Positions 14,788-61,660 of a stretch of DNA of 64,000 bases are shown in pieces. The notes beneath the pieces were generated by a model that did not search any database, had not been told where the DNA came from, and worked only from the letters and a program-made list of their open reading frames with translations. This DNA comes from Pteria penguin (lineage: Eukaryota > Mollusca > Bivalvia > Pterioida > Pteriidae): positions 49,814,790 through 49,878,789 of the forward strand of contig CM068583.1 in assembly GCA_035048485.1 (NCBI GenBank). The letters are read 5' to 3'. Within the stretch, counting starts at the first letter, position 1. The number at the start of each line of letters is the position of its first letter. The position numbers and the translations under genes were made by a program.

Positions 14788-15628
14788 ATGCAAAGCATTA
14801 TTGGAATATTTCTCCTTTATGTGGTGATTACGGTAAGAAATAGCAATCGTTTTAAACACAAATTATATATTGGTGGGGTTTTTTTTTTTTTGGTCTTTGT
14901 TTTTGTGGAGCTTTTTTTTTTTGTCCAAATTCAATTATATAATAATTAGTGTTTAATATTTCTTCACTTATAATACTTTTTCCTTTTTTATAATTCTGTG
15001 TTTTTATATCGTGCCCCCTTTAAATTCTGAATTTTAATAATCTTTTTATATTTTATTAGCGCCACATATTTATTACTAAAAATCCAGATTTGGCACAAAA
15101 ATGGCTTAGTTTGGATAATACAGATGTGATCCCCCCTTTCCCCCTTTTCGGAAATCCTGGATCCGCCACTGGCATGACATTTATCATAACCTTTACATGT
15201 AAGAGTATTTAGGGATTCTTGATTTGGTAACTATGACAGCTAAAATCTACATGATATGGTCATCTGTAAACATTCAGTAAAAAGATTTTAGAATTTACAT
15301 CACTTTAAATATTAAAATGATTTATTTTCTTAATTCAGATAAAAGGAGATGAATACATCTCGTTGAAATTTTTACACTACGAGAATATACGGAATCGAGT
15401 GTTAGCAATGCATAGCCCACCTGCAGTTTGCTGTGCAGGGTTGGGCACCAATACCTGCAATACTTCATGTACCCCATACCTTCACATATGCCTGCAGTAA
15501 GTACTCACCAGAGCACATAGACCAAAAACTGCATTAAAAATGAATTCAAAACGTTTTACATACCAGCTACCAAATATAAAGCAAGGAATGAGCGATAATA
15601 CTTGTAAGGAACGCAGAAAAATGATAAT

Positions 15629-15670
<42 letters not shown>

Positions 15671-18600
15671 AAATAAGGAATGGGAAGTAGTGATAATATG
15701 GCCGCAATTCTGTGGTTGTTTTTTGTTCAAGCTTTTTTGATAAATGAAAGATTGTCGATAGCGATGTAACACACCATCAGCCAGCCATATATCATATAAT
15801 ATCTGTGAAAGTGTAACTGAATGTGAACTTACTGTAAACTATACATGTAGCTAAATATTACATTTTGCTCTGATGTTTTGCAGTTCTGACAAAGGTTCGG
15901 ATAAGCACTGCATACAAGAAATGACCAGTTCTAGCTTTGGGAAGGTCAACCATACAAACTTCGGAAGTAGAATTGGAAATCTTTCTAATCCAGTTATATT
16001 TAGAATAAAGGACTGGAAGGTAAATGATTTGATATGTGATGATGAATTATTGTTCCATGCCAGTTAAAATCGGGATTTGTGCCGAATTCCGTTTTACTTT
16101 GCTATATTATATTTATTTCCATATCTTTTTTTTTCTCACAGTCTGAGAAAAAAAACCGTCATTTGATATATAAAGATACTTTATTTGTCATAAGGTAAGA
16201 GACTTTGCTCCAATGGCTACCCATTTGAAAGCCTTGTTATGTCAATACATTTGACACATTTCGTATGAAAAAGGGAATTGAAAATGGCGGTTCAAGTTTT
16301 CAGAAAATCATCATACTTATAAGGTGATAATCTGATAACATTAACAAAAGTATTTCAATAATAAAACTAGAATGTGTATAAACCTTCATGCATACATAAA
16401 CAAGAGGCCCAAATGGCCCTATATCGCTCACATGAACACTATTTGCTCAGCCACAAACACTGAACTGATTGCTTGCAGATTTTCGCAAAGGTATATACAT
16501 TCTCTTGCTGATTACGTTTTTGACAACTGAAAAAAGACTGTAAACTTGCATCTTTACACTGAATAAATCAAGACTATGATGCTCATCATTATATGTATAT
16601 AAATGTATAATAGTTTATCCTCCACTCTTTAATCCTAATAATAAATGCAAAAAATCCTGCAAATTATTATTGTATTCCAATTCTATTCAATAACATCTAT
16701 CACAATAAAATCAGTTAATTAAATTACACAAAATAAATGCATTATATGCAACCTACCAGAAGAAAATCTAAACAATTACTTGAAAATAGGCGAAAATGAC
16801 CTATTAAAACCTAATAGATAAATAAATACTACTACTACTGCTACTGCTACTACTACTACTACTGCTGCTGCTACTATAAAATAAAATAAAATAAAAAGGG
16901 TCCAAATTTTTGTTTCACAATAGAACCAGATTCACCGACACGTCATCCTTCTAGATCACCCTGGTGCATTTGGATTGATGATCAATGCAGCTGGTCTGAT
17001 GAAGTCTCTCAAATGAGGGTACCCTCCTTAGCCTATGCTGCTTTGCCTGGATCCATCTCTTGATAGATCTGACCGAAAATAGCAACATATATAGTGGCCC
17101 TGAGTACTTCATATTTACAAAGTTTCATCAAAATATTTCAATCAGTTTTAAAAGTCCGTCCTCTTTTATCTTAAAAAGTTGTAAAACATCCGAGAAAAAA
17201 TATTTCCGTTTTCCTTATCTTTCCAGTTACATTTATTACAATAAAATCAGTTAAAATAGATATGAAGAAATTAACTGAAATTATGCTAAAATGACAAAGT
17301 CAAAAAAGACGTAAAAATACCCTTTTCTGCTTTGAACGGAAAGAACAAATTTTGATATTACATCCTTCTAGAACACTCAGATAGCATGAGCTTTTAGATC
17401 CATTTATGTCTTCTTCTGAAGAAAATTTTCAGAGGAGGGTGCCCTTTTTGGCATACCTTTATCTATGGTGACACCACCTGTTGACAGATCTGAATAAAAA
17501 CACATTCACTGTAGAGGTTTACGAGTATTGTAGATATATCAAGTTTGACCAAAATCTGTCAGGCAGTTTAGAAGTCGAAATATGAAGAATTTACGACGAC
17601 GGACGGATGACGGACGAAGCGCTATGACAATAGATCAGGTGAGCTAAAAAGGTGTTGGCTAGAGTTACCAAAGCACAGGCGATTTGAACCTACGTTGATG
17701 TTGAGTTATCTCAGTCATAGTTCGCCGCTTTAGTGATATTGATGAGTTATATCATTTATGGTTTCTAATTATATTTGTACTTATTTTGCACAGTACGACG
17801 AAATCAACACGGTGTCGATATCAGTACTGGACAGCAGCAGTAGCTCTAATGTGATTTTGGTCAACAGATACCACCTGAATGTAAAGCCATATGCAAGTTT
17901 TGGTAATGCCGTGGAAGTAATATTGAAGGGCACAGATGTAAACACGCAAGCAGTGTGAGTGTTTTCATTTGCTATATGTTTCTAGTCATGATAGTCCCCT
18001 GAGCCACCTCTCATAATCAGTTTTATCTAATGTTTTATAAGATAGGTTAGTTTTGGACTTGAACCAAGGTGAAATAGTTAATATTGTCAAGACGTAACGT
18101 GTGATCAGAAGGGGAGCACTTTTCAAATGTCTCAACATGGTGAAGGCATAGTAGCTGAATGCAAAACACTATTGTTTTTACACGCCCGTCATTTGACGAG
18201 AAGTATTGTGTTACCGAGATTTCCGTCCATCTGTCCGTCCGTGACATTTCGTACGACCCATAGTTTTTACATGCCTTACTGACTGAATTCTATACTTGGG
18301 AGGATTGATCCTTGCAAGGAGGCGTTGTGTAATGACATTGAGCTAATGTCATAAAATTATTCCAAGGTTAAGGTTACTGGATTTTGGCGAGAGTTTTTGT
18401 CCGACCAATATAGGCTAATAATTTAAATATGCCTGGTCCCAGAAAATTTATACTTGGTACAATTGTTTCTTATAAGAAGGCGGTGTGTCATTGCCTTGAG
18501 CAAAGGTTATAGTTCCACGGTCAAGATCATGGTGGACTGTTTTTCTCTTTTTTATTATGTTGACTGTATTTCACCTCTTATTCATAATAAATGTCTACTA

Positions 18601-21600
18601 AAATAATCTTATGTCAGTGTCAATAATATGTTTGGCAGAAAGTCCCGGTTGAAAAACGCGCAGGCGACGCGACTGTTCATAAAGACAAAACAGATTGATT
18701 GATTGATTGATTGATTGTTTATTGTTTTTTGTTTTACGTCACTTCACGATTATTTCACGTATATGGTGACAGCATCTGCCTGAGGCATTGCATAGAAATT
18801 TAGACTTTTGCAACGGACCCACCCGAAGCAGTGAGGGATCTTTTACGTGCCACGCCTACCGTGACACGGGACCTCGGTTTTTACTGTCTCATCCGAAAGA
18901 CAGAACAGCGGTGTGTCCAGGGCGGGAGTCGAATCGGGGACCTCTCGATCACGGGCCGAGCACCTTATCCGCTAAGTCACACCGGCTTAGACAAAACAGA
19001 AAATTACAGACTGTATAAGAATAATTGATCGAAAGCGGAATTATGTGATTTACACTTAGTTTTGAACTTAAATTTCCCATTTTAATTACGCATATAATAC
19101 CGTATGTGTCCTTATCTTACTTAGACTACGTATTTCATACCGTATGTGTCCTTATCTTATTTAGACTACGTATTTCATACGATATGTGTCCTTTATCTTA
19201 CTTAGACAACATATTCCATACCGTATGTGTTCTTATCTTATTTAGGCTACGTATTTCATACCGTATGTGTCCTTTATCTTACTTAGACAACATATTCCAT
19301 ACCGTATGTGTCCTTATATTACTTAGACTACGTATTTTATACCGTATGTGCCCTTATCTTATTTAAGCTACGTATTTCATACCGTATGTGTCCTTTATCT
19401 TACTTAGACAACATATTCCATACCGTATGTGTTCTTATCTTATTTAGACTACGTATTTCATACAATATGTGTCCTTATCTTATTTAGACTACTTATTTCA
19501 TGCTGTCTGTGTCCTTTTCTTATTTACACCACGTATATATACCGTATGTGTCCTTATCTTATTTAGACTATGTATTTCATAACGTATGTGTCCTTATCTT
19601 ATTTAGACTACGTATATATACTGTATGTGCCCTTATCTTATTTAGACTACGTATATATACCGTATGTGTCATTATGTCATTTAGACTACGTATTTCATAC
19701 CGTATGTGTCTTATCTTATTTAGGCTACGTATCTTATACTGTATGCGTCCTTTTTTATTTATTCTACGTATATATACCGTATGCATCCTTATCTTATTTA
19801 GACTACGTATCTCATATCGTATTTGTCCTTATCTTATTTAGACTATGTATTTCACACCGAATGTGCCCTTTATTTTACTTAGACTACGTATATATACCGT
19901 ATGCGTCCTTATTTTATTTATCCTTCGTATATATATCGTATGTGTCCTTTATCTTCCTTAGACTACGTATACGTTCCGTATGTGTCCTTTATCCTCCTAC
20001 GTATTTGTACCGTACGTGTCCTTATCTTATTTAGGCTACGTATATACCGTATGTGTCCTTATCTTATTTAGGCTACGTATTCCATACCGTATGTGTCTTT
20101 ATTTTATTTAGGCTACGTATATACCGTATGTGTCTTTATTTTATTTAGGCTACGTATTCCGTACCATATGTGTCCTTATCTTATTTAGGCTACGTATTTC
20201 ATACCGTATGTGTCCTTATCTTATTTAGGCTACGTATTTCATACCGTATGTGTCCTTTATCTTACTTAGACAACGTATTCCATACCGTATGTGTCCTTAT
20301 CTTATTTAGACTACGTATTTCATACCGTATGTGTCCTTATCTTACTTAGACTATGTATTTCATACCGTATGTGTCCTTTATCTTACTTAGACAACGTATT
20401 CCATACTGTATATGTCCTTATCTTATTTAGGCTACGTATTTCATACCGTATGTGTCCTTATCTTATTTAGACTACGTATTTCATACCGTATGTGTCCTTA
20501 TCTTATTTAGACTACGTATTTCGTACCGTATGTGCCCTTATCTTATTTAGGCTACGTATTTCATACCGTATGTGTCCTTTATCTTACTTAGACAACGTAT
20601 TTTATACCGTATGTGTCCTTATCTTATTTATATTAGACTACGTATTTCATACCGTATGTGTCCTTGTATTATTTAGACTACGTATTCCATACCGTATGTG
20701 CCCTTATTTTATTTATACTACGTATATATACCGTATGTACCCTAGTATTATTTAGACTACGTATTTCATACCGTATGTGTCCTTATCTTAATTAGGTTAC
20801 GTATGCCAAACTGCCGTGACATTCTAAGTCCCATACCGGTGAAAGCACAGGTGCTATAGGTTTCCTCGCTGTCTTAACATTTGTTCGTCCAGCCGTCCGT
20901 CTGTCTGCCTATGCGAATAACCTTGTCATCGCAACTCCTACACCCTTTAACAGATCTTCACCATACCTAGCAAAAATGAAGAGCAGCATATAAAGATGTG
21001 CATGAAAGGAGATAATTTTATTCTGTACAATTTTACGAGAGTAATGGTAATTTGAACTTCGAAAATGTATGCATTTCATTGAAACATCATGTCATCGCAA
21101 TTCCTTCACCAATATTCAACGTAATTTCACCAACACTGTCAGAAATGAAGAGCAGCATATTAAGATGTGCATAAAGGAAATATTTTTGTTTTATTAACTG
21201 CAAAAGTTATGGCCCTTTCAACTTAGAGATGACCGGAAGAAAAACGCGCAGGCGACGCGACTGTTCATAAAGACAAAACAGATTGACTGATTATTGTTTT
21301 ACGTCACTTCACGATTATTTCACGTATATGGTGACAGCATCTGCCTGAGGCATTGCATAGAAATTTAGACTTTTGCAACGGACCCACCCGAAGCAGTGAG
21401 GGATCTTTTACGTGCCACGCCTACCGTGACACGGGACCTCGGTTTTTACTGTCTCATCCGAAAGACAGAACAGCGGTGTGTCCAGGGCGGGAGTCGAATC
21501 GGGGACCTCTCGATCACGGGCCGAGCACCTTATCCGCTAAGTCACACCGGCTTAGACAAAACAGAAAATTACAGACTGTATAAGAATAATTGATCGAAAG

Positions 21601-21929
21601 CGGAATTATCTGATTTACACTTAGTTTTGAACTTAAATTTCCCATTTTAATTACGCATATAATACCGTATGTGTCCTTATCTTACTTAGACTACGTATTT
21701 CATACCGTATGTGTCCTTATCTTATTTAGACTACGTATTTCATACGATATGTGTCCTTATCATATTTAGACTACTTATTTCATGCTGTCTGTGTCCTTTC
21801 CTTATTTACACCACGTATATATACAGTATGTGACCGTATCTTATTTAGACTACGTGTTCCATACCGTATGTGTCTTTATTTTATTTAGACTACGTGTTTC
21901 GTACCGTATGTGCCCTTATCTTCTTTAGG

Positions 21930-22023
<94 letters not shown>

Positions 22024-25000
22024 TTTGTGTCCGTATCTTATTTAGACTACGTATATATACCGTATGTGTCCTTATCTTATTTATACTATATATATATATA
22101 TATACAGTATGTGTCCTTATCTTATTCAGACTACGTATTTCATACCGTATGTGTCCTTATCTTATTTAGACCATGTATTTAATGCCGTATGTGTCATTAT
22201 GTTATTTAGACTACGTATTTCATACCGTATGTGTCCTTTTCTTATCTAGATTATGTATTTCATATCGTATGTGTCCTTGTCTTATTTAGCCTACGTATTT
22301 CATACGATATGTGTCCTTATCTTATTTAGACTACTTATTTCATGCTGTCTGTGTCCTTTTCTTATTTACATCACGTATATATACCGTATGTGTCCTTATC
22401 TTATTTAGACTACGTGTTCCATACCGTATATGTATATATATACAGTATGTGTCCTTATCTTATTTAGACTACGCATATATACCGTATGTGTCCTTATTTT
22501 ATTTATACTATATATATACAGTGTGTCCTTATCTTATTTAGACTACGTATTTCATACCGTATGTGTCCTTATCTTATTTAGACTATGTATTTCATACCGT
22601 ATGTGTCCTTATCTTATTTAGACTATGTATTTCATACCGTATGTATCCTTATCTTATTTAGACTACGTATTTCATACCGTATGTGTTCTTATCTTATCTT
22701 ATCTTATCTTATCTTATCTGATTGATTGATTGATTGATTTTTGTTTAACGTCACACCACAAATATTTTAAGTATATGGCGACGGCATCTGCCTGATGCAG
22801 GGCATACAAATTCTGACCTTTGCAACGAACCCACTCGAAGCAGTGAGGGATCTTTAACGTGACATGCCTACCACGACACGGGACCTCGGTTTTACTGTCT
22901 CATCCGAAAGACAGGACACCGGCATGGCCAGAACGGGACTCGATCCCCGGCCTCCCGATCAGGAGTCCAGCGCGATACCACTAGGCCACGTCGGCTTCTG
23001 CTCTTATCTGAAAGATATAAGCAGCTGTAGCCCAGTGGATGAGTTGTTCGTCTTGTGACCAAGAGGTCCGGGTTCGACATCTGTCAGGGACACACCGGTG
23101 CTCTGTCTTTCGGATGAGACAGTAAAAACCGAGGTCCCGTGTCATGGTAGGCATGGCATGTAAAAGATCCCACTGGGCAAAGTCAATGACCTTGAGACCT
23201 TCACCGTTACCTTTTTTGCTGCTGGGGACATGGTGTTCCACAAACACATCTTGCTTTTTTTTTCACTTTTGGAAGGTTGTGGCCCCCTCCCACTTTTCAC
23301 TGCCGAGCTACGCCACTGCGTATGTCACACTGTGTGTCCTTATTTTATTTAGACTACGTTTGCTATACTATATTGTCCTTCTTTTATTGTGGCGGATCCA
23401 GGATTTTCGAAAAGGGTGGCCCACTTTTGTATTAGCCGACCTACTCAACCATTTTCGGTGCAAAATCTTGAATTTTATTAGTAAATATGTGGCCAAAAAG
23501 GGGGGGGGGGCCCGCCCCTCCCCCTCTAAATCCGCCACTGGATTACGTGTGTCATACCGTATGTGTACTTATATTTTTAGATTACGTATGTTACTATCAT
23601 TCGTCAAACTTATTGAAACAACATGTAACCGTATTTTATGTTTCTCTGTTAAATGTGAACTGCTTCACCTTAATGATGATATGTGATTAGGAGCAGTATA
23701 TATACTACCAGAAAAATCTAGATACTCTTCCCTGGATACATTCCCTCAACTTAAAAAAAGGTCTAATATCGCTCAGTAATAAATACAAATATGTATGTTT
23801 AATTGGAGATTTCAACAGTAGATCTGCTAATTTAAACGATGTTATTGATTGATTGATTGATTGTTTTTGTTTAACGTCACACCACGAATATTTCACGTAT
23901 ATGGTGACGGCATCTGCCTGATGCGGGGCATACAAATTTTGACTTTTGCAACGGACCCACCCGCAGCAGTGAGGGATCTTTAACGTGCCATGCATACCAC
24001 GACACGAGGCCTCGGTTTTCACTGTCTCATCCGAAAGACAGGACACCGGCATGGCCAGAGCGGGAATCGAACCCCGGCCTCCCGATCAGGAGTCCAGCGC
24101 GATACCACTATGCCTTGCCAGCTTCGATGTTATAGATGTAAGTTATCTGAAAATGATAATTTTGAACGTGAAGATAAATTTTCAAACGTTATACATTTTC
24201 TGGAAAATATGAGAATACCCAGAGCTAGAATGTCATGTGATGATAGAATTAATTTCATTTCGTCATTCATCATTTACTGGACCACCGTGAACTCAGTACT
24301 TTGTACTAAATGGTAGAGATGGTGCTAATAAAAAAAATCGTGAATTTCACATCTAAAACCCAAGTGTCATTGACTGTTGTATGGCTTATGTGAATTTTAT
24401 CACTTTAATAGCTGATTTTCGTATATCACCATTTACCTCTATACACAAGGCATGTGAATGATAACTACGATGTGGTAACTAAATTTTAATGGGATGACGA
24501 TAAGAAAATTGAGTATAGTGAAGGAATAACTGATCGTAGGGGCAATATTAATAGTATAGTTGACGAGTTATTACATGTCAGTGCTAATGTTATCAACAGT
24601 GATTTTATCGATGAAATGGCTGACAATATTTCAACTCTTTTGTTTCCACCGCAAAACAAGTCTTTGGTACAAAAGTTAAACGTACTAATTCTGTAAGAAA
24701 ATGTATGGTGGTGACATATTAAAATGGCTTATATGTCAAAGAGAGAAATAAAGAAGTCCCTTCCTATATGTATTCACTTATTCCACAAAGTGTTCATCAG
24801 GTCAGCCAAAGAAATCGGAGGTCAAGGTCAAATCTTCAAACACCAGTATGTAGGTCGAACCTGTACCAAAATTCTTTTATTTGTAAAACTGTAAAAGATT
24901 GGAATGCGCAATCAGAAAGCGCAAGAGACATACGGTCAATTTCAGAATTCAAGAGATTTTAGACAAAGATAAAAAGAAAGTTCCAAAACATTTTTATTCA

Positions 25001-28000
25001 GGAGAACGTAAAGGTCAAATATTGCACGCTCGTCTTCGATTGGGTTGCATCTGTCTGAATGCTGATTTTTATAAAAATCATCTACGTGATGATGACAACT
25101 GTGTCTGTGGTCTCCCGGAAACGGCAAATCATTTCTTTTTGGAATGTACTAACCATAGTGAATTACGCAATAGAACTATCAATACATTATCAGTTCAAAT
25201 AAACATAAATATCTTGTTATCAGGTTGACCCTGTATGATGATGATGTAAATGGAGAGATATTTGCTCAAATGCAAAATTTCATTATCAATAGTAATAGAT
25301 TCTCTTAAGTAAATCTTACAGACATGATCACACGAAACGTGTAAACTTTCCACTTTTTTATCATTCATTTAATATCAGGGCTTTTTTCCCACTTAAATAA
25401 AATCATGAAATAGAAATTAAATTTCTCATCTGATTAGCATCCACTACCTTCAGCCTGTACCCTCTTCCTATATTTACTTTTTTTCTTTCTGTTTTCTTAT
25501 GTCCCTTTTTCTTCTTCCTTCTTTCGTTTTACCCTTATTGTTATTTATAAGGTTTAAACGAGATGGTAAATATAAGCATGAAATCTATACTTATGAATTT
25601 TCATTTATGTATTTGTATTATATATAATGTTGGCCAATTATATATACTAGTAATTTCATGTTGGATTTCAAGAGAGAGCTTTATATAAGTCCGAGACTTG
25701 TTGCTCAATCCTATATATATGTGTTATGTTATACGATTCATGCGATTTTCTAAATAAATACTGTTTAAGCCAAAGAGAGAAAATATAAACAAATTTTAAT
25801 AAGGTCAGTCAGACATCATGAATCTGCGTTAAAAGCTACACTTGGCTCGTTGAGGTCTAAAACTCCGAAAGAATATTGGAAGAATATCAATAGGAATCAT
25901 GTAAAATCAAAACCGAATGTGCCTATTAATGAATTATATGAATTTTTCAAGGAATTGAATATTTACTATAATGAACAAGTGTTTTTGTCTCTGAGGAAAT
26001 GAACATATCATCAGCTATAAATGTGTGATGTCATTGAAGCGAAACAGATCATGTGGTGAAGACCATATGTATAAAAAGAATATGTTATAAATTTCATTGA
26101 TTCTTTGATGCCAGTATATATTGCTTTATTCGATACAGTCTGTAATAGTGGTGTTGTACCTAGTAATTGGTTACCAGGAAACTGTATTGTGCCAATTTAT
26201 AGAAGTAAAGGTGATGGTCAATGATAAAAAAACAAACTATCGACCAACAATTACACTTATCAGGTGTGTTGGTAAATTATGAACCTTTTTACTTCACCAA
26301 AGGTTAACTATTTATGCTGACACTGCAGAAATTCTTTTGGAAAATCAAGCTGGGTTTAGAAAAAAAATACTCAACTGTCATTCGTAAATCTTCTTTATAT
26401 AGTCTCATTGAATTGTTTAAAAATAGGGGGGAAAACTTATATTGTACGTTCATTGTTATTGTAAAGTATGTATAATGGAATTAAAGCAAGAGCTAAGGTA
26501 GATAATAATTTCTCCGAATGTTTTCCATGTACGAAAGGGATTAGTCAAGGACAAAATTTGCCCCCCCCCCTTTTATTTTCAATATTTTTAATAACTCTGA
26601 TAAATTTCTTCCAACGCGTGAATCAAAGGTGCTTGACTCAGTTTCTAAACTATATGCTCAAAGTATTTTGTCAGAAATAGGTATGAGTGATTTATTTACT
26701 AGTTGTTGTGAACTAGGTATTACAAATATATATGGTGCAACGTTAAACAGCATTTTGCTGACATTTATAAACAGTCTTTAATTGCTGATGTAAATTCATT
26801 GTCAAAATGACATATAGTTGATTATGTAAATTTACAAACTTATTTGACCAAACCTATCTATAATCAATACAAGAAATACATTTGTATGTTGAGACTATCT
26901 TCGTATTGCATATCAATTGAAACTGGTCGTTATAAAATGTTCCTTTAGAAAAAAGAATTTATCCTTTGTGTAAAAGTGATGTTGAGGATGAATTTCATTT
27001 TATGCTGACATGTCCCGCTTATTCGACTCTTAGAGAAAAGTTATTAAATAGATATTATTTTCAACGCCCCCGTATTTAAATTGAAACAGAACGGAAACTT
27101 ATTAGGGACATGAAAAAATTTTATATCTCGCCACGGCGAGTTACTATCTCGCAATGTTAAATGAAAATTTTACACGTGGTCATGTGCGGCAGATTACATA
27201 GTGTGTCGTAAGTAAACTTAAGCTGTTTAGTTATTGATACCATTTTTAAATACTGATTCTATTAATTTATCAAAGGCTAGTATCTCGCCGTGGTGAGATA
27301 GTAACTTGCCATTGCGAATTAGTATACTATCTCGCGGTGGCGTGATAGTAACTCGCCGTGGTGAGATTTTTTTCATGCCCCTAATAAGCTTCCGTAGGTA
27401 CAGCTATTTAGCTCCACCATAGCCGCAAGTAGTGGGCCTACATGAATGTAGGGCCACTACTTGCGGCTAGCTCCACCAATACAAAGAATTGAGAAACAGG
27501 TAAATATATTTAAAAGCTTTTGATATAAGGAAAAAGATAAGAGCTTACGTACATGTATCTATGTATTTACACATTTATTTTCGGTACTTGGTGATATACA
27601 TGTATGTCTTTGTATTTGTATATATTTGTTTGTGTAGTATTTATATGCTTTTAGGCATTTGATAAATAAACTATTCTATATGAAAATCAAATTAATATTT
27701 ATCTTTAGTTGTTTGTGCTGTTCTATCCTGATGACACGGTCCATGCTCATGCTATAAATGCTTCAGTATAATATCAATCGTTTTGTAACTTGAAAAAGGT
27801 TAAGTAGCCGATAATTCGTAATTGAGTGTTCTTTTTATTATTATTGAAATCGTTAATAATTTTCAGTATTTAGGTGTATTATTTTCAAGAACCGGGCGTT
27901 TCGGAATCATATTAAATACTCATATAATAAAGCTATGAAAGCTGTGTACAGTGTAATCTCTTCATCCAGAAACCACAATCTATTAGTTGTCAATTAGATT

Positions 28001-31000
28001 TATCTGATAAAATTGTTATAGCTGCGAGATATGCTTCTTTTCAAATAGAGAAGTAGTAGAGAAATTACATTTAAAATTTGGTAAATATATCCTGAATCTT
28101 ATCTACTCTATTCCAAATTATATGCTATATGGTGATCTGGGAAGATACCCTTTAGCTATAAATATAAAAGTACGAATAATAACTTTTTGGGCAAAATTGG
28201 TATACTCAAATGGACAAAATGGTATGCTCTTTCACATACAGTAACGTGTATACGATGGATGTGATGTATAAAATGTATTCTTGACGAATGTGGTTTATCA
28301 CATATTTTGGTTGTCTGATACATTCTCTAGCGTGAATTGGTTGCGAAATACTGTTTGTGAAATATTGTTTGATCAATTTGTACAGAAATGGCAGAGCGAT
28401 GTTTTAATTCTCCTAAAGAATCCTACTATAGAATTTTAAAAACAAAATTGAGTTTAGAAAGTTATCTCCTACACATTCCAATAAAAACAAAAAAGCAAAA
28501 TTACTATGTAAATAAAGATAATGTAATCTTAATTTACCAATGGAAACTGGTAGGTGGCATAAAAGATCAGTACCATTATATTCTTGAATGTAACATCGAT
28601 ATCATATCCATCAGAAAATTTGTTTACTTGAAATTTACTTTGTCAATCCTAATACATTTAAATATGCAAAACTTTTTAAAGTCAAACGATAAAATTTTGT
28701 TGTCAAAATTATGTGATTTCATTAGTTATATAAAGGACAGAGTCCAACTTCCATGTTGATTTATTTACTGCGCATCTGCTGATATGTATTGTATATATGT
28801 GTATATCTCTTTTGTTCTGTACACTGATATTATGTACAGTTTGTGAGAATAAAGAACTTGTCATTGTCATTCTGTGCATGTACTTCAGGTCAGCAAGATA
28901 CAGATATAAGAGTAGGCATCTTGTGATTTCTCACTTCACTGTTTTCGATCCCTGAAGTAGCGCAAAAGGACAACACTATCTTTACTCGTATATGAATTCC
29001 ACCAGAATAAGTACATATACAATGAGTACACTTTTATTACGCGGTAACAATTTATTTATATACACTAGAAATGATGTCAGATATAATCTCATATATTTTT
29101 CAGGTTAAAATACACCGCCATGTTTTATTCCTGTGCGAGGTCGCCGGACAGTCATGTGATATGCAATGAAAACGGACAGACGCAGTGTGGCCCGACATTT
29201 TATGGACCAGACTGTACTATCAAATGTGTTCCTAATTTCCATGGGAAATGTGATGAAAACGGAACTCTTATTTGCGATACAAATTTCTACGGGAATGACT
29301 GCCAAACGTTTTGTCGTGATGTTGCTCACGGGCGATGCAATTTAAACGGAACATTGGAGTGTGACGTCAACTTTTACAACAATAACTGTACACGTCTCTG
29401 CATCACGCCCACAAATGGCCAGGGTAGATGCGATACTGATGGATTTTTACATTGTGCAAATAGTTTCTATGGCCAGGACTGCTCCATCAGCTGTACAGAC
29501 ACCCACAATGGTAAATGTGACTTGAATGGGAAACTTGTGTGCAATACTGGGTACTATACCTCAGATTGTAGCATCTACTGCAAGCCTGCTAATACCCATG
29601 AGATATGCACAGAAAATGGGACAGTAATATGTGAGCAAAATTATTATTCCAGTAATTGCTCTCGGTTTTGCAATTCTACAGACAATGGTGTTTGTGATAA
29701 AGACGGGAACCTCATTTGTAAAAGAAACTACTACGGAGATGGCTGCTCCATTCATTGTGTGCCAAGCATACGGGCAAGTTGCTCTGTGAACGGAACTATG
29801 ATCTGTAATGAAGGTAAGAGATATTTTCATACCATATTTACATAAAAAGCTGAATCAAAATTATTTGTGGAAATAATATAGTAGGCAAATTGTAATACTG
29901 CAATTTAAAATAAAAATCTGTTTAGTTATGTTTCAATGTGTATATGATAATCATAATAATACAATAATGAGGTCACTCATTTATCAAAATATAGAAGCAG
30001 GTTGGTACAGTGGTATCGAACAAGACTAACAACAAGTTACTAACCTAGTCTAGTGCGATACCACTGTGACTAGACGTCAAATCTGAGGACCCATGTTCGG
30101 TTACGAGGGTGAGCTCGGATTTTTCTACGTTGATTTCTCATATTCTGCCTCCCTATTTGTCCTTCGAATGAGACAACATAAACCGAGGCCCCGTGTCACG
30201 GTATAGACCGGAACTCTGTGTCACTGTATGTATCGAGAACCCGTGTCACTGTATGTATCGAGGTCCCGTGTCACGGTATTGACCGAGGTCCCGTGTCACG
30301 GTAAAATAAACCGAGGTCCCGTGTCACGGTAAAATAAACCGAGGTCCCGTGTCACGGTAAAATAAACCGAGGTCCGCGACACGGTATAAACCGAGGCCCC
30401 ACATCACGGTATAATGCACCGGGGTCCTATGTCACTGTATAAACCGGGGCCCCGTGTCACGATATACCTAGGCACGTAGAAGATCCCTCACTACTTTAGA
30501 TGGTTCCGTAGTATAGGACAGAATTATGAAGCAATGCACCAGACAGGTGCCGCCACCTTATTATTGCCTTAATCTTGGTGTGGCGTTAAACAATAACAAA
30601 TCAAACAAGATTTATGAAGAGAAAGAGAATTGATCAGATGGAAGATTCAGCAATGTTCCCGTTTCTTGTCAATAATTTAAGCCGGATTTATAACCTAATT
30701 ATTGTACTTTGCTTTGATATTATCGAGATATTTGACACTCATGCGAATAAATAATTTTGGCAAAGCGGAAAAATGCAGTTTTTTTCTATATGCTCTAGTT
30801 TATACTGCATATCATATCAAATAACAAGATCTACAACTTAAAGCATTTGTGCTGGATATGTCTATGCCCCCTACTTGTTCTAAGGCTTTAATACTGTACG
30901 TCCGGAAACATCAGTGTTTCGCAAACGCATCTTCTTATTACATACCTACCATAACCATTTTGGCAAATACATAGTATATCTTCTCTTCGTCGGTACCTTT

Positions 31001-34000
31001 AAACAAAGAAACACAATCACACGACGTTTTATATCTCAGTAACTCATGGATTGCTGTGGAAAAACTAAAAACTTGTTGATTTTCTGATTAAGCTGTATAA
31101 CCAGAAAACCATTGCATCGGTACACTACAATGTCTTATCGGACATTGACAATCAGTATGCGACGCAAAAGCTTTCGTAATTCACTATAATCGATTGTCAT
31201 ATGTGGTATGGTTAATCCTTGACCTTAGCTTTCTGTCAACATCAGATCTCCTCACCAAGCCCCTCAAGGATTTAACAAATAACGTTTCTGCGTTACTTCA
31301 AACATGTATTGATATGTAGGAGGGCATGAGATCATAGTATAGGCATTGGTCAATATTCCCTTTATGAACACGCTCATCTCAACATGTCCTAGTGTTTGTA
31401 GTAGCATCAATGCCTGAAGGGCTACTTTCGAAGAATCAACTTTAAACCAGTCACTGAGCTTTATCAACCCCTTAATTTTAATTGCTTTCGGGTCATCTTC
31501 TGAATAAATCCGTTCCGTCTTTCCCCAGTAAGACTACCAAAGAATGTACCATTTGTCTATTTATAAATTCCGACATTTACCAAGTGATCACATGACTACG
31601 GTAGTCATGTGATCACTTTTGATAAGTATCAGAAGTGTCTTTTTCTAACTTTAAATTTTTCTTATAGTCATGTGCTCAATTTAAATAACAAAAATTTAAA
31701 GTTAGAAAAAGACAGAAGTTAAACAAAGACACTTGTATCCCTCGAACAAAAAATTAGAAACTGTTGTTTCGTATCTAAACTTCTTTGGTGCGGCTTCGTG
31801 AGCTGTAGTGATATCTAATTGATACTTTGCGTAATTCAGCTTTTAACTTTCTCAAATTTACAAAAGAACAGGGTGATTCAAACATGCTAAAAGAACATTT
31901 AGAAAGTCCATTCTTTCCTGCTCATTGACCACAATATGTGTCTACAGTCGTTTGTTTTTAAGTCTATCCCTATCATAATTTTTCCTCATTTATTTCAGGG
32001 TGGTATGGCAGCAATTGCTCAAACAAATTTTGTCAAAATAACGGGGTACAGATTCCGGATAAAAACTCCGCATCAGGTTTTCGGTGTGCATGTCCAAATG
32101 GTTATTCGGGAAAGCATTGCGAAGTGGAAATTAACGAATGCAGTGATCCTATCATGTGTCAAAATAATGCTACATGCAACAATTTACCCGGAACTTACAT
32201 TTGTATCTGTACAATGGGATGGACAGGGAAAGCATGTGACACGAACATAGACGAGTGTTTGAGTGATCCTTGTATACACGGGAATTGTTCCGACAAGCCG
32301 GGAGGATTCGTTTGCGATTGTGATGTCGGATGGGAAGGAAAATTATGTGGCAATGATATTGATGAATGCAAAACACAGCCTTGTTCTAACAACGCCTCCT
32401 GCTTAAATTCGGGCGGAGGGTACAGCTGCTCATGTCCATCGGGATTTACAGATAAAAACTGTAGTACGAACATAGATGAATGTTCGGGTGTGGTTTGTCA
32501 AAACCAGGGAACATGCAAGGACGGTATCAACAGTTACTCGTGCCAATGCTCATCAGGTTTCACTGGAAACTTATGCCAAACAGATGTAAATGAATGTCAA
32601 AGTAACCCGTGTAAAAATGGCGCCACGTGCATTGATCAAATCGATGCTTATTCTTGTAGTTGTGCAAATGGTTGGAATGGTACGAACTGTGATCTAGATA
32701 TCAATGAATGCCTCTTTGAAAATTGTTCAGGTCATGGAATTTGTGAAAATACAAACGGAAGTTTCTTCTGTAATTGTTCAGCAGGATATTATGGATATAA
32801 CTGTAGCAGTGACAAAGACGAGTGTGCTGTTATGCCGTGTAAACATGGCGGTACATGTATAGATGCAGTGAACGGTTATCGGTGTATTTGTCCTACACGA
32901 TACACAGGTACAATGTGTGAATTTCAGAACTATTGCTCGTTTCATCCGTGTAGGAATAATGCAACCTGCATCAACCGACAGACTGAATTTTATTGCAACT
33001 GTTCATCTGGTTGGAAAGGTTTGTCATGTGACATTGATATTAACGAGTGCTCATCGTCTCCCTGTCAACACGGAAATTGCTCGAACACTCCCGGGAGTTA
33101 TGTATGCACATGCGATCCTGGATGGGAATTGGACCACTGTGATACTGATATAAACGAGTGTTTGATGGATCCATGTGAAAATAATGGCACATGCAACAAT
33201 TATAACGGAACATACGACTGTGTTTGTCCTACTGGGTTCATGGGTAGTAACTGCTCAATCAATATAAACGAATGTCAGAACGTTACTTGTCAAAACAATG
33301 CTACTTGTATTGATTTGGTAAACGCCTTTGAATGTAAATGCGAAGCAGGGTTTAGGGGAACTTACTGCGAAACGGACATCAATGACTGTAGCAACACAAC
33401 TTGTATGCATGGTAACTGTACGGACCTTATCAATGACTTCTACTGTGATTGTGCGCAAGGGTGGACAGGAAAGAACTGTGATACGGACATAAACGAGTGT
33501 GCCAGTAATTTAACTAATCTTTGCGTGAATGGATCGTGTATGAACAAGAGAGGTGATTTCCATTGTAACTGTATACCGGGATTTACCGGCCATCTCTGTG
33601 ATACAGACATCAATGAGTGCGACTCAAATCCCTGTATGAATAATGGCAGCTGTCTTAATGGCTTGAACCGATACGATTGCAGTTGTGCGTTTAGATTCAC
33701 AGGAGAATCTTGTGAATACGAAGATTATTGCCTGTATCATCCATGTAGAAATAATGGCACTTGTGTGGAAAATGGAACAGAATTCAGTTGCATATGTCCT
33801 CGCGGCTGGACTGGAATAGCATGTGACGTCGACATTGACGAATGTGCGTCTAACAATAGCAACCCATGTAATGGGCAGAGTAAATGTGAAAATATTCCAG
33901 GATCTTACCTGTGTCATTCATGCTCTTCCCTTGTATGCAAAAATAATGGCACGTGTACACCTCATATAAATGGTCCGAGATGTCATTGTTCAAGGGGTTG

Positions 34001-36885
34001 GACAGGAAATACGTGTTTGGAGAAAGATTTTTGTAATGAAACTGGAATCAACCCTTGCCCAAGAAACTTAAGTTGCTCCAATGCATTCGATGGTTTTACA
34101 TGCCATGATTTGTGCATGACGACTCCATGTAAGAATGGGAAATGCAGTATGGTGGCTGGATCATACATATGTGATTGTTATAAAGGGTACCGGGGCCACA
34201 ATTGCGAACTCATTGATAACTGTCAAAATGACACGTGTAAAAATAATGGCACGTGCAACAATGTAGGCAACTCTTATAACTGTACCTGTCCTGTGGGTTT
34301 TGAGGGTAAACATTGTGAAATAGAAGATGTTTGTTCTAACATTTTGCCGTGTTCCAACAACGCCACATGTGTAAATACTGGATCAAATTACACGTGCTCT
34401 TGCATGAAGGGTTGGACAGGAACAAACTGTAACAAGACAGACTACTGCGTCAATTTTCCGTGTCAAAATAATGGTACCTGTAATAATGATGACACTGGAT
34501 TCAATTGTGCGTGTTCGACTGGTTGGGTTGGGAATTACTGTTCCAACCAAGACTTCTGTCTCAATAGACCGTGTCTTCATGGTAACTGCTCCAATCTGAA
34601 CGATACCTATGAATGCACTTGTTCGCAGGGATTTGCAGGAGAAAACTGTACAGATACTGATTTCTGTTTACTGGATCCTTGTCAGAATATGGGGAAATGT
34701 CAAACTTTCCCAACAGGGCATTATTGTTTCTGTGTTAATGGGTTTAAAGGTGAAAATTGTACAGACGATATTGACGAATGCGCAGAAAACACGCATAATT
34801 GCCCCACGATTCTTGGGCTGCATTGTCACAACAAAGTCGGTGGATATGATTGTTTGCCCTCTAAGAGAACAGCGAAATTTCATGGCGCAATTGAGCAAGG
34901 TATATTATTTGTAAACAAAAGTATGTATTCTCTATGAAAGTATTGTTTCTAGAGGCCATTTTAAGAGAGTGACTCCATTAAGGTTGTCCACGGAAGTAGA
35001 AATGGAGGGATATAGAAGTTGTGTATTTAAATAGACTTTTCTTATTTCCATGGTGATATAGTCAGTCAAGTAGCAGTCACTTTTATATACTTTACCGTAA
35101 CATGCAACATACATACATAAAGAGAGGGGGGCAGACCTTGAATACCAAATATTCAAAATCTGCAGACTATGTCATAATTAACAGAAGTCTATGATTCTAT
35201 TTCTGTCTGAAAGTATTAATCAGTAAGAACAAGTTAACACAAATTCTAAACCAATAAAATAAGTTTATGTAAGCAATTTCATCAAAGTGACCAAATGACC
35301 AATAAAGATGTTTATTACAATAGGTTTTCAAAAAAGAAAAAAATATCTCCAACTTTATCAAGTTGAAAAAAAAAACTAAAGATACATTACTAACAAACAG
35401 AGGTACAAAAAATACATGAATAACTAATACAATTTGTTAAAAAACTTCATTTTCAAACAGTACTGAAATATATAATTTCTCTATCACAAACTCACCTGAT
35501 TTAACTAGCCTATACAAAGCACAGGTGGTATGTATGTCTCGATTTCTAATGACATTATCCCCCAAAAATGATATACATATGGATTTTAAAAGATGTATTA
35601 ACGTAGTATGATATATGAAAATGTAACGTTCTAGATTAAAGTAGTAAGGACCTAGTGACAAAGCGGCTGGTGAATTCCACATTGTAACACTTGAAATCGG
35701 TTTTTGGTATATAGACCATCGATACCAATGTAAACGAATGTCTAATAAACTTTGTTAGGTAGTTGTATGGGTCAAATTTCTATGCATTGTAACGTGTGTT
35801 ATCTGAGAAAATCCATTCCTGTGCTGACAAAAACATCATACCCCATCCGAAAACTTTGACAGAATGTGCATATGATCGAAAATGCAACTATTTCAAGATG
35901 GTACGAGATAAGTTGTACTGAATTTAGTAACAGGTAATATTTCATCCTACATCACTCATTATACTAACACCTTTGTTTTATATCTATAATTTAGGGAACG
36001 ATTCTTTTCTTCATCTTAATCGCATCGGGTTGGCAACCGACTATCAGCGCTTACAAAAGTATTTAGAAACCGTTGTGATACAGAATTTCTGTGCAATGAA
36101 TGGGAAACAAGTGGCAGTGGATCTGGACAGTATCTCCGTCAATTCTAGGTAATGTTTGATGTAATGTATTATAATCCGTTGTTCAGACGAAACGCATTAT
36201 TGCAAATGTCGTCAACACACAATACAACAAACTGAATATATTCGCCTTCGTCGTTATATAGAGCTACCTTGATTATTTCAGTCCGTAGCATGGATCAATT
36301 GTCTCAATGTCCCAGACTTTTACAGGGGCGGTCCAGGTTTTGGGGCGAAGTCGGACGAGACCAAAGCGGTTTCCAGCAGGTCCAAGGCGGAGCCCTGATG
36401 GGGGGCCAAGGGAGAAGCTCCTGCAATCAGACCATTTCATGGCCTGAAATTGCGCAATTTCACCATCCTATTGTCAGAACCACCGCGTAATTGAAGCTTT
36501 TTGTGATGTTATAAAAATAAGTCTCGTCCATACCTTGTTATTTTTGTACCTGTGGTGGATTCCGTCATACAGCCGAGTCACATCTTATATTAGCTGCATC
36601 GCAAAACCTACCATCATTTTATTTTTTGCATTTTCTTACGTACTGCAACGACAGGTAATACTGGAGCCAATTATGACGAGCCTGATTGTGCTCTATAGTT
36701 TAAAATATAATATTCTCTTAAAATTATGATAATACAGTATAATTCATATATTCAATGAACTACATGTACCTAATATCCTTTTTTATAGCACGGGGTACTC
36801 TGAAGTTGGTATTCGGGCAAGATGTAACCACGAGGACATAACGATACCTCTTTTGGACAGCCTTCACCACACAGACTTTCCTTAA
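14788..36885 (+). CDS. Notch-ligand-like protein: MNNL + seven tandem DSL modules + about 26 EGF
   Basis: Coding exons are 14788-14832, 15339-15496, 15884-16019, 17794-17954, 29104-29813, 31999-34899, 35995-36148 and 36789-36885. Total length is 4,362 nt, exactly divisible by three, about 1,453 residues. All junctions are GT..AG and phase-compatible. The product has a hydrophobic N-terminus (MQSIIGIFLLYVVIT), an MNNL-type domain as in Delta/Serrate/Jagged, a run of DSL-type modules, and a long EGF array with many calcium-binding D-I-D/N-E-C starts. A C-terminal globular stretch of about 80 residues follows and then a stop. By family it should be extracellular and act in Notch signalling. Odd points: canonical ligands carry one DSL domain, this has seven; the first module lacks its leading cysteines; no transmembrane helix is visible before the stop, so it may be secreted or the 3' end may be broken. 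An in-frame ATG at 14707 would add 27 residues; I prefer 14788 because the signal peptide starts there. Confidence 0.88.
15339..17954 (+). CDS. MNNL-domain exons 2-4 of the Notch-ligand-like gene
   Basis: Exon 2 (15339-15496) encodes IKGDEYISLKFLHYENIRNR then a cysteine cluster AVCCAGLGTNTCNTSC and HICLQ. The CC...C...C...C spacing is typical of the MNNL domain of Notch ligands. Exon 3 (15884-16019) gives KHCIQEM and a GSRIGNLSNPVIFRIKDW block, matching the 'G..L.NPI.F.F..W' segment of the family. Exon 4 (17794-17954) gives YDEINTVSISVLDSS and a beta-strand-like ending, VEVILKGTDVNTQAV. Donors are ctgca|gtaag, tggaag|gtaaa and gcagt|gtgag; acceptors are attcag, ttgcag and gcacag. In known ligands this domain with the first DSL contacts Notch EGF11-12 and membranes. 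The introns carry a (GT)n tract and a ~1.25-kb dispersed repeat. Confidence 0.85.
15632..15669. repeat. (GT)n microsatellite in intron 2
   Basis: About 19 GT dinucleotides between 'aatacgt' and 'gcaaataagg'. Confidence 0.93.
16400..17650 (+). repeat. ~1.25-kb dispersed non-autonomous repeat in intron 3
   Basis: It starts 'acaagaggcccaaatggcc' then 'ctatatcgctcacatgaac' and ends 'gctatgacaatagatcaggt' then 'gagctaaaaa'. The same start and end phrases bound 41541-42765 and partly 48195-48635. Short terminal inverted similarity (cgctcac / gtgagc) is present. Internally there is a (CTA)n/(AAAAT)n tract at about 16828-16900. No transposase is seen. Confidence 0.65.
18651..19190. repeat. Left copy of a ~0.54-kb segmental duplication (SINE plus satellite edge)
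   Basis: From gaaaaacgcgcaggcgacgc through a reverse-oriented SINE into the first satellite units, this block is nearly identical to 21239-21750. The offset falls from 2,588 to 2,565 bp across the SINE tail because the (GATT)n tract is shorter in the right copy. Confidence 0.9.
18695..18988 (-). repeat. tRNA-derived SINE (tail left, tRNA head right)
   Basis: The left end is (GATT)n, the reverse of an (AATC)n tail. The right end is the tRNA-like head with B box GGGAGTCGAATCGGGG on the reverse strand. It is flanked by the 12-bp duplication agacaaaacaga at 18683-18694 and 18989-19000. Confidence 0.85.
19085..20815. repeat. 40-bp satellite array, left block (about 43 copies)
   Basis: The unit is cttatcttatttagactacg followed by tatttcataccgtatgtgtc (40 bp). 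Variants of 38-41 bp replace 'tttcataccg' with 'tatataccg'. The unit includes TACGTA and a near-palindrome CATACCGTATG. ORFs such as 'YLDYVFHTVCVLILFRLR' across it are repeat artefacts. Confidence 0.95.
20816..21238. other. Non-satellite spacer between satellite blocks
   Basis: About 420 bp of dispersed-repeat-like sequence. It holds two related phrases: 'tgtcatcgcaactcctacac' and 'catcgcaattccttcaccaa', each followed by 'gaagagcagcatat.aagatgtgcat'. No ORF. Confidence 0.5.
21239..21750. repeat. Right copy of the SINE-plus-satellite segmental duplication
   Basis: Nearly identical to 18651-19190. It includes the same SINE (21283-21553) and the same target-site duplication agacaaaacaga (21271-21282 and 21554-21565), so the SINE inserted before the block was duplicated. 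Confidence 0.9.
21655..22690. repeat. 40-bp satellite array, right block, containing (TA)n
   Basis: Same 40-bp unit as 19085-20815. At 21931-22020 a pure (TA)45 tract replaces the 'tatata' part of a unit; shorter (TA)n expansions sit at about 22086-22104, 22431-22442 and 22508-22518. The (TCTTA)n pentamer tract at about 22688-22716 forms the right edge. Confidence 0.93.
22720..22998 (-). repeat. tRNA-derived SINE inserted at the satellite edge
   Basis: Reverse-oriented: (GATT)n on the left, tRNA head with B box GGGACTCGATCCCC at about 22938 on the right. Left flank tcttatctga (in the pentamer tract) recurs right of the SINE at about 23003-23012, a likely 10-bp target duplication. Confidence 0.8.
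23028..23215 (+). repeat. Second SINE copy, forward orientation, 3' truncated
   Basis: The tRNA-like head has A box tgtagcccagtggatgagtt and B box GGGTTCGACATC. The body reads 'tctttcggatgagacagtaa' and 'aaccgaggtcccgtgtca' as in the other copies. It stops near 'agatcccactgggcaaag' without the usual tail. Confidence 0.75.
23395..23542. repeat. Short repeat with gtggcggat / atccgccac ends (MITE-like) in satellite remnant
   Basis: It begins gtggcggatccaggatttt and ends taaatccgccactgg. A related fragment in the opposite sense ends 'atcctggatccgccactgg' at about 15153-15173. Satellite-like units flank it (23320-23380, 23545-23600), so it may have inserted into the array. It contains a poly-G run. 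Confidence 0.55.
23690..25775 (+). pseudogene. Decayed non-LTR retrotransposon A (endonuclease part plus C-terminus)
   Basis: The plus strand encodes the AP-endonuclease-like signature IGDFNSRSANLND near 23799-23840. It is interrupted by a SINE and resumes as VSYLSENDNF...NMRIPRARMSCD (to about 24240). A fragment typical of the EN-RT linker follows (24490-24640), then the C-terminal region with NSFICKTVKDWNA, LHARLRLGC and the zinc-knuckle-like CVCGLPETANHFFLEC (24765-25230). The reverse transcriptase core is absent, so there is a large internal deletion. The 3' end is gctttatataag ... aaataaatactgtttaa at about 25677-25770. Stops and frameshifts make it inactive. Confidence 0.75.
23846..24124 (-). 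repeat. SINE nested inside the endonuclease domain of element A
   Basis: Reverse-oriented SINE with (ATTG)n on the left and tRNA head (B box GGGAATCGAACCCC) on the right. The 9-bp duplication cgatgttat lies at 23837-23845 and 24125-24133. Removing it rejoins the endonuclease reading (…SANLNDV into DVIDVSYLSEND). Confidence 0.88.
25776..27090 (+). pseudogene. Decayed non-LTR retrotransposon B (reverse transcriptase and C-terminus)
   Basis: Broken frames give the pre-RT linker PKEYWKNINRNHVKSK near 25870 and ELYEFFKELN near 25935. RT pieces follow: GVVPSNWLPGNCIVPIYRS near 26150, YRPTITLIRCVGKL near 26240, LENQAGFRKKYST near 26340 and CTKGISQGQ near 26528. The C-terminal zinc-knuckle-like YPLCKSDVEDEFHFMLTCPA lies near 26950-27015. 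Multiple stops and indels. Family resembles CR1/L2-like APE-type elements, but I cannot assign the clade. Confidence 0.75.
27092..27393. repeat. ~300-bp foldback element with ~60-bp terminal inverted repeats
   Basis: Left terminus 27092-27152 (ggaaacttattagggacatg..., ctcgccacggcgagttacta) pairs with the right terminus 27327-27393 read in reverse (ggaagcttattaggggcatg..., caccacggcgagttactatc). Inner 'tatctcgccgtggtgagata' palindromes recur. The interior has no ORF. Confidence 0.8.
27420..27467. repeat. 48-bp palindrome flanked by an 11-bp direct repeat
   Basis: Arms tagccgcaagtagtgg and ccactacttgcggc surround a short centre (gcctacatgaatgtaggg, itself hairpin-like). The 11-mer tagctccacca occurs immediately left (27409-27419) and right (27468-27478), as a target duplication would. 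Confidence 0.8.
27690..28865 (+). pseudogene. Decayed non-LTR retrotransposon C (3' half)
   Basis: A post-RT motif FQYLGVLFSRTGRFG near 27868-27910 is followed by KAMKAVYSVISSSRNHNL. The C-terminal part includes DQYHYILECN (about 28568) and KLFKS/NFLKSNDKILLSKLCD with FISYIKDRVQLPC just before a stop at 28757. The 3' end is 'gtgagaataaagaacttgtc' then (attgtc)2, typical of a short-repeat LINE tail. Broken frames, inactive. Confidence 0.72.
29104..29813 (+). CDS. Exon 5 of the Notch-ligand-like gene: seven tandem DSL-type modules
   Basis: One 710-nt exon (phase 2 in, phase 1 out) encodes repeats of about 32 residues. Pattern: C-x(3)-[FY]Y-x(3)-C-x(3)-C-x(4-8)-C-x(2)-[ND]G-x(3)-C. Successive starts are CGPTFYGPDC, CDTNFYGNDC, CDVNFYNNNC, CANSFYGQDC, CNTGYYTSDC, CEQNYYSSNC and CKRNYYGDGC. 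The last unit is closed by GWYGSNC from the next exon. This cysteine layout with the [FY]YG signature is that of the Delta/Serrate/LAG-2 domain. A leading partial unit (FYSCARSPDSHVICNENG) precedes them and lacks the first two cysteines. Several units carry N-glycosylation sequons at ENGT/LNGT. Confidence 0.88.
30000..30600 (+). repeat. SINE copy expanded from within into a minisatellite
   Basis: The left part is a SINE head (ggttggtacagtggtatcg, 'tgttcggttacgagggt') followed by 'tccttcgaatgagacaacat'. From 30178 to about 30475 the SINE piece 'accgaggtcccgtgtcacgg' is repeated about 12 times at 23-31 bp spacing, with spacers such as taaaataa. The SINE then resumes (gcacgtagaagatccctcac, 'tggtgtggcgttaaac'). 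Confidence 0.85.
31582..31618. repeat. Perfect 37-bp palindrome
   Basis: aagtgatcacatgactac, one G, then its exact reverse complement gtagtcatgtgatcactt. Confidence 0.95.
31637..31713. repeat. Perfect 24-bp inverted repeat with 29-bp spacer
   Basis: Arm 31637-31660 (gtctttttctaactttaaa...) and its exact reverse complement at 31690-31713 (...tttaaagttagaaaaagac). The spacer holds 'agtcatgtgctcaa', echoing the palindrome just upstream. Confidence 0.93.
31999..34899 (+). CDS. Exon 6 of the Notch-ligand-like gene: about 26 EGF-like modules
   Basis: A single 2,901-nt exon, phase 1 in and out. After GWYGSNC closes the last DSL unit, EGF-like modules run to the end. The first lacks its third cysteine (CQNNGVQIP). 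About fifteen begin with a calcium-binding consensus such as TDINEC or NIDEC; others begin EFQNYC, LIDNC or TDYC. Two modules are shortened or fused: one near 33,830-33,925 (ENIPGSYLCHSC) and one near 34,030-34,120 (SCSNAFDGFTCHDLC). Fourteen modules match the O-fucose consensus C2-x4-[ST]-C3 (for example CQNNATC, CKNGATC, CRNNGTC). The last, IDECAENTHNC…, leads into a non-EGF tail (SKRTAKFHGAIEQ). EGF arrays form the stalk of Notch ligands. Confidence 0.92.
34900..35994 (+). other. Intron 6 of the Notch-ligand-like gene
   Basis: Donor ag|gtatat (after gagcaa) and acceptor aatttag. AT-rich, no repeats or ORFs that I can identify. Confidence 0.6.
35995..36885 (+). CDS. C-terminal exons 7 and 8 of the Notch-ligand-like gene
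   Basis: Exon 7 (35995-36148) encodes DSFLHLNRIGLATDYQ, FLETVV-like LQKYLETVVIQNFCAMNG and KQVAVDLDSISVNS. Exon 8 (36789-36885) continues STGYSEVGIRARCNHEDIT and stops after HHTDFP at TAA 36883-36885. Junctions are gag caa g|gt...ag|gg and tct ag|gt...ag|c, both frame-preserving. The alpha/beta look and position are like the juxtamembrane region of Jagged-type ligands, but I cannot name a domain. No hydrophobic helix follows. In the +1-shifted frame, coding-like sequence continues to a TAG at about 36992 (LHVRVNTLYSILAEWYHM, ...VVEVKIINF), which may mean a frameshift near 36880. The exon 8 assignment is less certain than the rest. Confidence 0.62.
36281..36490. repeat. G/C-rich dispersed repeat in intron 7
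   Basis: The block 'caggggcggtccaggttttg' to 'gaagctcctgcaatcagacc' is more G/C-rich than its surroundings. It gives a 73-codon ORF, but splicing it to exon 7 would meet a TAG at once. It resembles a non-coding dispersed element; the family is not recognised. Confidence 0.4.
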
Positions 36886-61600: not shown

Positions 61601-61605
61601 TATAA

Positions 61606-61660
<55 letters not shown>

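Follow-up and report, generated by a model that had tools for sequence, protein, structure and literature searches.

The DSL domain is usually viewed as a single receptor-binding domain, and the origin of its odd fold is unsettled. In a study that treats the JAG1 crystal structure, residues F199, R201, R203 and F207 make up a conserved Notch-binding face, and DSL is proposed to be a truncation of tandem EGF domains, on the ground that two of its loops superimpose (PMC3415683). Tandem DSL copies in bivalves are already in print: a survey that screened 138 lophotrochozoan DSL genes describes a bivalve-only branch whose genes have DSL or tandem repeats of it but no EGF, and another branch, including Delta and Jagged, that combines DSL with EGF and further domains, and its methods number several DSL domains within one gene (PMC8166818). 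Here we describe a gene of the bivalve Pteria penguin, located in a 64,000-nt window (GenBank assembly GCA_035048485.1, contig CM068583.1, forward strand; C4:49814790-49878789 of the 838-Mb assembly), in which an MNNL-like region is followed by a chain of DSL-type units and then by EGF repeats. In searches of the PMC library, PMC8166818 was the sole paper on multi-DSL plus EGF ligands to come up, and no description was found of a protein of this architecture, of an array with a shared DSL hairpin or of one with >100 units.

The chain is encoded by exon 5 of our gene model (Table 1), where an open reading frame, 29105-29812 (+), specifies a periodic Cys-rich stretch of seven four-Cys units. A sequence-only reading of the window had called this exon a run of seven DSL-type units, and comparison with Pfam bears this out, with DSL (PF01414) the top-scoring family and no unit assigned to EGF or laminin-type families alone. 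The exon as a whole matches DSL at 81.5 bits, the runner-up being EGF_TEN at 44.4 bits, under its own cut-off of 65. For the scoring of single units, each piece extended from one C-x8-C hairpin through the next inclusive, such that neighbours have one hairpin in common; scored in isolation, all seven units reach 26.0-38.3 bits, above the curated DSL threshold of 24.2, and non-DSL families fall at least 11 bits lower on every unit (best EGF-type score 15.2; gamma-thionin 17.3 on unit 3). Shuffles of the array with Cys positions fixed yielded no DSL match at E <= 1 (0/10), and the gene's own EGF exon, serving as a control, yielded none at E <= 10. Because of the single-unit scores and these two controls, we regard the DSL-type units as real and as more than a pattern of Cys spacing. 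A loose Cys pattern applied to six frames of the window recovers these seven units plus a single chance match, at 34074 in the EGF exon.

The array has a period of 29-31 aa, shorter than the approximately 32 residues first estimated, and each period contains four Cys, arranged as a C-x8-C hairpin and a C-x7-9-C loop. This spacing agrees with that of DSL save for the shorter C3-C4 loop, and disulphide pairing of consecutive Cys, as in DSL domains, is predicted for the units. Each C-x8-C hairpin closes one DSL match and opens the next; a canonical DSL domain equals one and a half array periods, and adjacent DSL matches therefore have a common hairpin. The seven tandem modules noted earlier are thus seven DSL-type units, but not separate domains. 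The array's best sequence match in the PDB is SCARF1 (8hna, E 1.6e-8), with JAG1 behind it at E 0.00066, and SCARF1 also ranks second by Foldseek, as might be expected if the units were MEGF/SCARF-type EGF repeats that lack one disulphide and have become DSL-like by convergence. We consider such an origin quite improbable, given the lead of DSL over EGF-type families on 7/7 units and the MNNL-like character of the region before the array, which in the scallop relative described below scores 22.3 bits against an MNNL cut-off of 22.5.

The loop between C3 and C4, which in canonical ligands contacts Notch, is shortened in every unit of the window, to 7-9 aa from the canonical 11. F199 is retained in 2/7 units, R201 in 1/7 and R203 in none, and the FGH motif is missing from all seven. 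Counting, with one search pattern, the 7 window units together with 186 in the 180 kb around a cluster of paralogous arrays on C9, FGH occurs in 0/193 array units of the genome; the scallop relative shows the same pattern, with FGH in 0/9 units and loops of 6-8 aa. Among the eight top DSL loci in the genome, the loop is 11 aa long and contains FGH in L001, L002, L003 and L008, is equally long but without FGH in L004, L005 and L007, and in L006 is a variant with an extra Cys, also without FGH. L001-L003 (C8 twice, C6) are taken as canonical-looking ligands because the three strongest MNNL matches share their strand and are 2.4-46 kb away. The genome retains such ligands beside the array genes. 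As a separate observation, L004, L005 and L007 form a DSL exon group at C1:32.90-33.01 Mb with a loop of the type KPSDNTSGHY, representing DSL genes additional to the canonical ligands.

Since the contact loop is shortened and the key residues are mostly gone, a role in Notch activation is less likely, and the earlier suggestion of a multivalent Notch ligand is not upheld; nor was a transmembrane segment found in the model. A further suggestion made at the time, that the array might be used for something other than Notch binding, we judge to be right. On balance we favor, as reasonably probable, a secreted relative of Notch ligands in which amplification of DSL has produced a periodic chain with a structural, adhesive or recognition role in place of Notch activation. 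It weighs against this reading that loss of FGH alone is no proof of lost Notch binding, because some DSL loci with a full-length loop lack the motif as well. The main rival is a soluble Notch antagonist or decoy, whose MNNL-like head and array would touch Notch weakly and gain avidity from many units. The domain order of a Notch ligand and the presence of seven units are consistent with this possibility, and mollusc Delta2 ligands without a transmembrane domain are described in the lophotrochozoan survey (PMC8166818). We nonetheless think it unlikely, in view of the shortened loop in 7/7 units, the absence of FGH from the 193 array units counted in this genome and from nine in scallop, as opposed to its presence at three canonical MNNL+DSL loci, and the seven N-glycosylation sequons in exon 5 (52 in the whole model).

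The gene model, built from the sequence by splice sites and phases and including inferred exons 7 and 8, comprises eight exons encoding 1453 aa in the order signal peptide, MNNL-like region, DSL array and EGF array. Each of the seven introns has GT-AG borders and keeps the phase, among them those at junctions 17954/29104 and 29813/31999, and the frame is open throughout. Exon 6 contains 24 Pfam EGF stretches, or 22 EGF units when a strict 6-Cys pattern is used for the count, somewhat fewer than the approximately 26 first counted; exons 7 and 8 have no Pfam family above cut-off. The likely signal peptide, judged by hydropathy alone, is the sole hydrophobic segment of the N-terminus, 19 aa at residue 4 with a value of 1.62. 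No transmembrane segment was found in the 1453-aa model, with its inferred last exons: the strongest non-N-terminal segment reaches 0.89, compared with 2.74 in jagged-2 (P0118) and 2.61 in an Asterias DSL-EGF protein (P0107). Further downstream, hydrophobic open frames occur in the stretch scanned, as far as 46.7 kb, but none could be linked to the gene by splice sites. Judging from the model, the protein is probably secreted.

Table 1. Features of the 64,000-nt window (positions are those of the window)
Feature	Position	Strand	Evidence or description
Exon 1, start codon and likely signal peptide	14788..14832	+	Hydropathy; donor GT, phase 0
Exon 2, first MNNL-like part with its Cys	15339..15496	+	Sole Pfam family MNNL, 16.0 bits, E 0.0089
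Exon 3, middle MNNL-like part, motif IGNLSNPVIF	15884..16019	+	Motif also in scallop P0121 (alignment)
Exon 4, last MNNL-like part	17794..17954	+	GT-AG, phase fits; without Pfam family
Exon 5, DSL array	29104..29813	+	Pfam DSL 81.5 bits, 8 stretches
N-terminal half DSL unit, without first C..YYG..C hairpin	29132..29185	+	DSL 19.6 bits, under cut-off
DSL unit 1	29186..29272	+	DSL 28.7 bits
DSL unit 2	29273..29359	+	DSL 31.2 bits
DSL unit 3	29360..29452	+	DSL 28.3 bits
DSL unit 4	29453..29539	+	DSL 27.5 bits
DSL unit 5	29540..29629	+	DSL 26.0 bits
DSL unit 6	29630..29716	+	DSL 28.4 bits
DSL unit 7	29717..29803	+	DSL 38.3 bits, scored with closing hairpin partly in exon 6
Exon 6, end of closing hairpin (to 32018), then EGF array	31999..34899	+	Pfam EGF 395.6 bits, 24 stretches
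Exon 7, C-terminal region (inferred)	35995..36148	+	GT-AG in phase
Exon 8, C-terminus (inferred), stop TAA 36883-36885	36789..36885	+	GT-AG in phase
Minisatellite	7928-8996		42 nt
Minisatellite	9432-10843		47 nt
Minisatellite	19097-20804		40 nt
Minisatellite	21662-22697		40 (120) nt
Minisatellite	46095-46462		21 nt
Minisatellite	62080-63463		145 nt
Repeat element, two copies	18770-19015 and 21335-21580		Identical 82-aa frames
PARP14-like gene	46711-47004 and 53811-54239	-	PARP catalytic domain 40.9 bits; WWE domain 43.2 bits
Broken retroelement-like frames	60038-61606	-	No Pfam match at E <= 0.01

Between the signal peptide and the array, MNNL (PF07657) is the sole Pfam family to appear, at 14.2 bits for 158 aa and 16.0 bits for the first 60 aa, below the cut-off of 22.5, with no family on the last 91 aa. 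The Notch-ligand-like order given by the sequence-only reading holds, but its MNNL is MNNL-like and sub-threshold. When the 445-aa N-terminal piece was scanned whole, MNNL was not among the Pfam matches, and the 15 places found in a genome-wide MNNL search at E <= 1 (7 above cut-off) do not include the window locus. Alignment of three MNNL-like regions with jagged-2 by hhalign is weak (probability 5%, E 0.0072), and a PDB search with the MNNL-like part and the first units returned one meaningless match. Within its own genome, the MNNL-like part gives 7 matches at E <= 1, of which 4 are in the window and 3 are weak matches of exon 3 on C9 (C9:36312386, C9:36113585 and C9:50529186; E 0.25-0.85). 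These three sit 235, 149 and 1426 bases downstream of MNNL places on the same strand, and it is because of this proximity to Pfam MNNL places that we call the window region MNNL-like; we think that it represents a diverged MNNL. Several sub-threshold MNNL matches also stand in a row at C9:35.83-36.31 Mb, two of them closely followed by matches of window exon 3, and this is perhaps another group of MNNL-like genes, adjoining the cluster of DSL arrays.

With residues 14-404 as query, two proteins were found at E <= 10 among 1668 candidates of approximately 800-2540 aa. The first, P0121 from the scallop Mizuhopecten yessoensis (E 5e-81, 36% identity, 90% coverage of residues 14-404), is annotated 'neurogenic locus Notch protein-like' / 'Fibropellin-1' and may be among the genes of the lophotrochozoan survey; the second is a dictyostelid EGF protein (E 3e-21). 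P0121 consists of a hydrophobic start, an MNNL-like region (the one scoring just under the MNNL cut-off), one strict DSL unit, a second MNNL-like region without a Pfam match, seven strict units and EGF repeats, and Pfam DSL finds 10 stretches in it (69.3 bits). As annotated, it is perhaps a fusion of two neighboring genes. The search with the 445-aa N-terminal piece gave nothing at E <= 0.001 among 979 candidates of approximately 245-780 aa. With residues 130-560, 220 proteins were retrieved, and the best 120 of the 220 are mostly crumbs, eyes shut and Notch-type EGF arrays, Pfam DSL occurring among these 120 in P0107 and P0118, one stretch each. Mean unit identity is 39% within the window and 39% between window and P0121 units, and no nucleotide tandem repeat was found in exon 5; because divergence is equal within and between species and the exon has no such repeat, the array looks old.

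The second MNNL-like region of P0121 runs into a half DSL unit with the truncation seen in the window gene, a finding in favor of the splice 17954/29104. This junction matters for the possibility that our model fuses two genes, the MNNL-like exons lying 11 kb upstream of the array across an intron (17955-29103) that contains two long minisatellites. We regard such a fusion as very improbable: the phases fit at 7/7 introns, P0121 passes from MNNL-like region to half unit and array in a similar manner, and three C9 arrays have MNNL-like sequence 6-12 kb upstream on the same strand, a link by position only.

A genome search with exon 5 produced 77 candidates and 80 matches at E <= 0.001, comprising one copy on C4, the C9 cluster (36.707-36.844 Mb), a further C9 locus at 21.48 Mb (E 3e-26) and less strong matches on C1 (two) and at C9:2.50 Mb. 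Open frames of the cluster encode 13, 5, 18, 8, 6 and 132-134 units (the largest count varying between two search patterns), and two further frames hold one unit each; in one open frame, C9:36755400-36756287 (-) (L014), DSL units pass directly into EGF units. The largest array occupies a 3984-aa frame, C9:36831935-36843886 (+) (L022, L023), with approximately 134 DSL-type units in the length as assembled, and has a higher-order repeat of 174 nt, equal to two units, which in the portion inside L022 amounts to 43.6 copies with 94% matches. The openness of this frame was dropped as proof of coding, the antisense being open too, as a period divisible by three allows.

What we count as evidence that the 3984-aa frame is coding is of three kinds. 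Differences among 58 sampled 174-nt stretches peak at the third codon position (11.7, 8.9 and 18.2 per pair, in a count whose register slips where the pattern misses a unit); the first 121 codons differ from the 18-unit neighbor with dN 0.165 and dS 0.867; and three upstream pieces resemble, in unchanged succession, those upstream of that neighbor (48% over 44 aa, 56% over 27 aa and 44% over 34 aa). One of these pieces is also matched by an MNNL-like profile built without it (E 0.008), the other two strong matches of the profile being its own seeds. Inside the giant array, sampled pairs of two unit types give mean dN/dS values of 0.055/0.093 and 0.043/0.135, and constraint there looks weaker. 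One member of the family appears to hold a 12-kb exon of approximately 134 units.

These observations invite a broader proposal, which we offer tentatively and doubt slightly more readily than we believe: that DSL, instead of being a closed unit, corresponds to a turn and a half of an open-ended repeat, which this family polymerizes from 5 to approximately 134 units, with a shortened Notch-contact loop, into rods borne on MNNL-like heads. Were this true, the array genes would directly show the relation between DSL and tandem EGF-like repeats, and a natural chain with a common hairpin makes the derivation of DSL from EGF testable by structure and trees. For the window gene, our preferred reading of a secreted, amplified Notch-ligand relative would place an MNNL-like head before one continuous Cys-rich DSL stalk, probably a rod-like, disulphide-rich run of chained hairpins, followed by an EGF rod. 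Such a molecule might work extracellularly in adhesion, matrix or recognition, its ligand-like head reused, apparently away from Notch.

The remaining features of the window are listed in Table 1, where the lengths given for the minisatellites, all of them long, are repeat periods. The two copies of one repeat element lie in the intron before exon 5. In the PARP14-like gene, matches to KH_PARP14 are sub-threshold, and the broken retroelement-like frames presumably resemble Penelope-like elements.

Compared with Delta and Jagged/Serrate, the window gene shares the order of signal peptide, MNNL(-like) region, DSL and EGF, the match to the DSL profile, and the placement of EGF repeats (24 Pfam stretches) after DSL. 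Those ligands, however, have one complete DSL domain bearing the F199/R201/R203/F207 face, with an 11-aa contact loop and an MNNL above cut-off, whereas the window gene has a DSL chain whose first C..YYG..C hairpin is missing after the MNNL-like part, loops of 7-9 aa without FGH, and an MNNL score below cut-off. A canonical ligand also possesses a transmembrane segment and an intracellular domain, according to PMC5356439, and no transmembrane segment was found in the 1453-aa model with its inferred last exons. SCARF1/MEGF arrays are likewise elongated, have a similar hairpin and provide the best PDB sequence match, but they carry extra C-x-C Cys in each repeat, and their profiles score well below DSL on the window units. 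P0121, the one relative found, has the same succession of MNNL-like region, half unit, DSL array and EGF, and differs in its two MNNL-like regions, each with DSL units, its shorter EGF part and its different C-terminus. As far as the text of PMC8166818 describes them, the bivalve-only genes resemble the window gene in their tandem DSL but are without EGF, and to that arrangement the window gene adds both an EGF array and an MNNL-like head.
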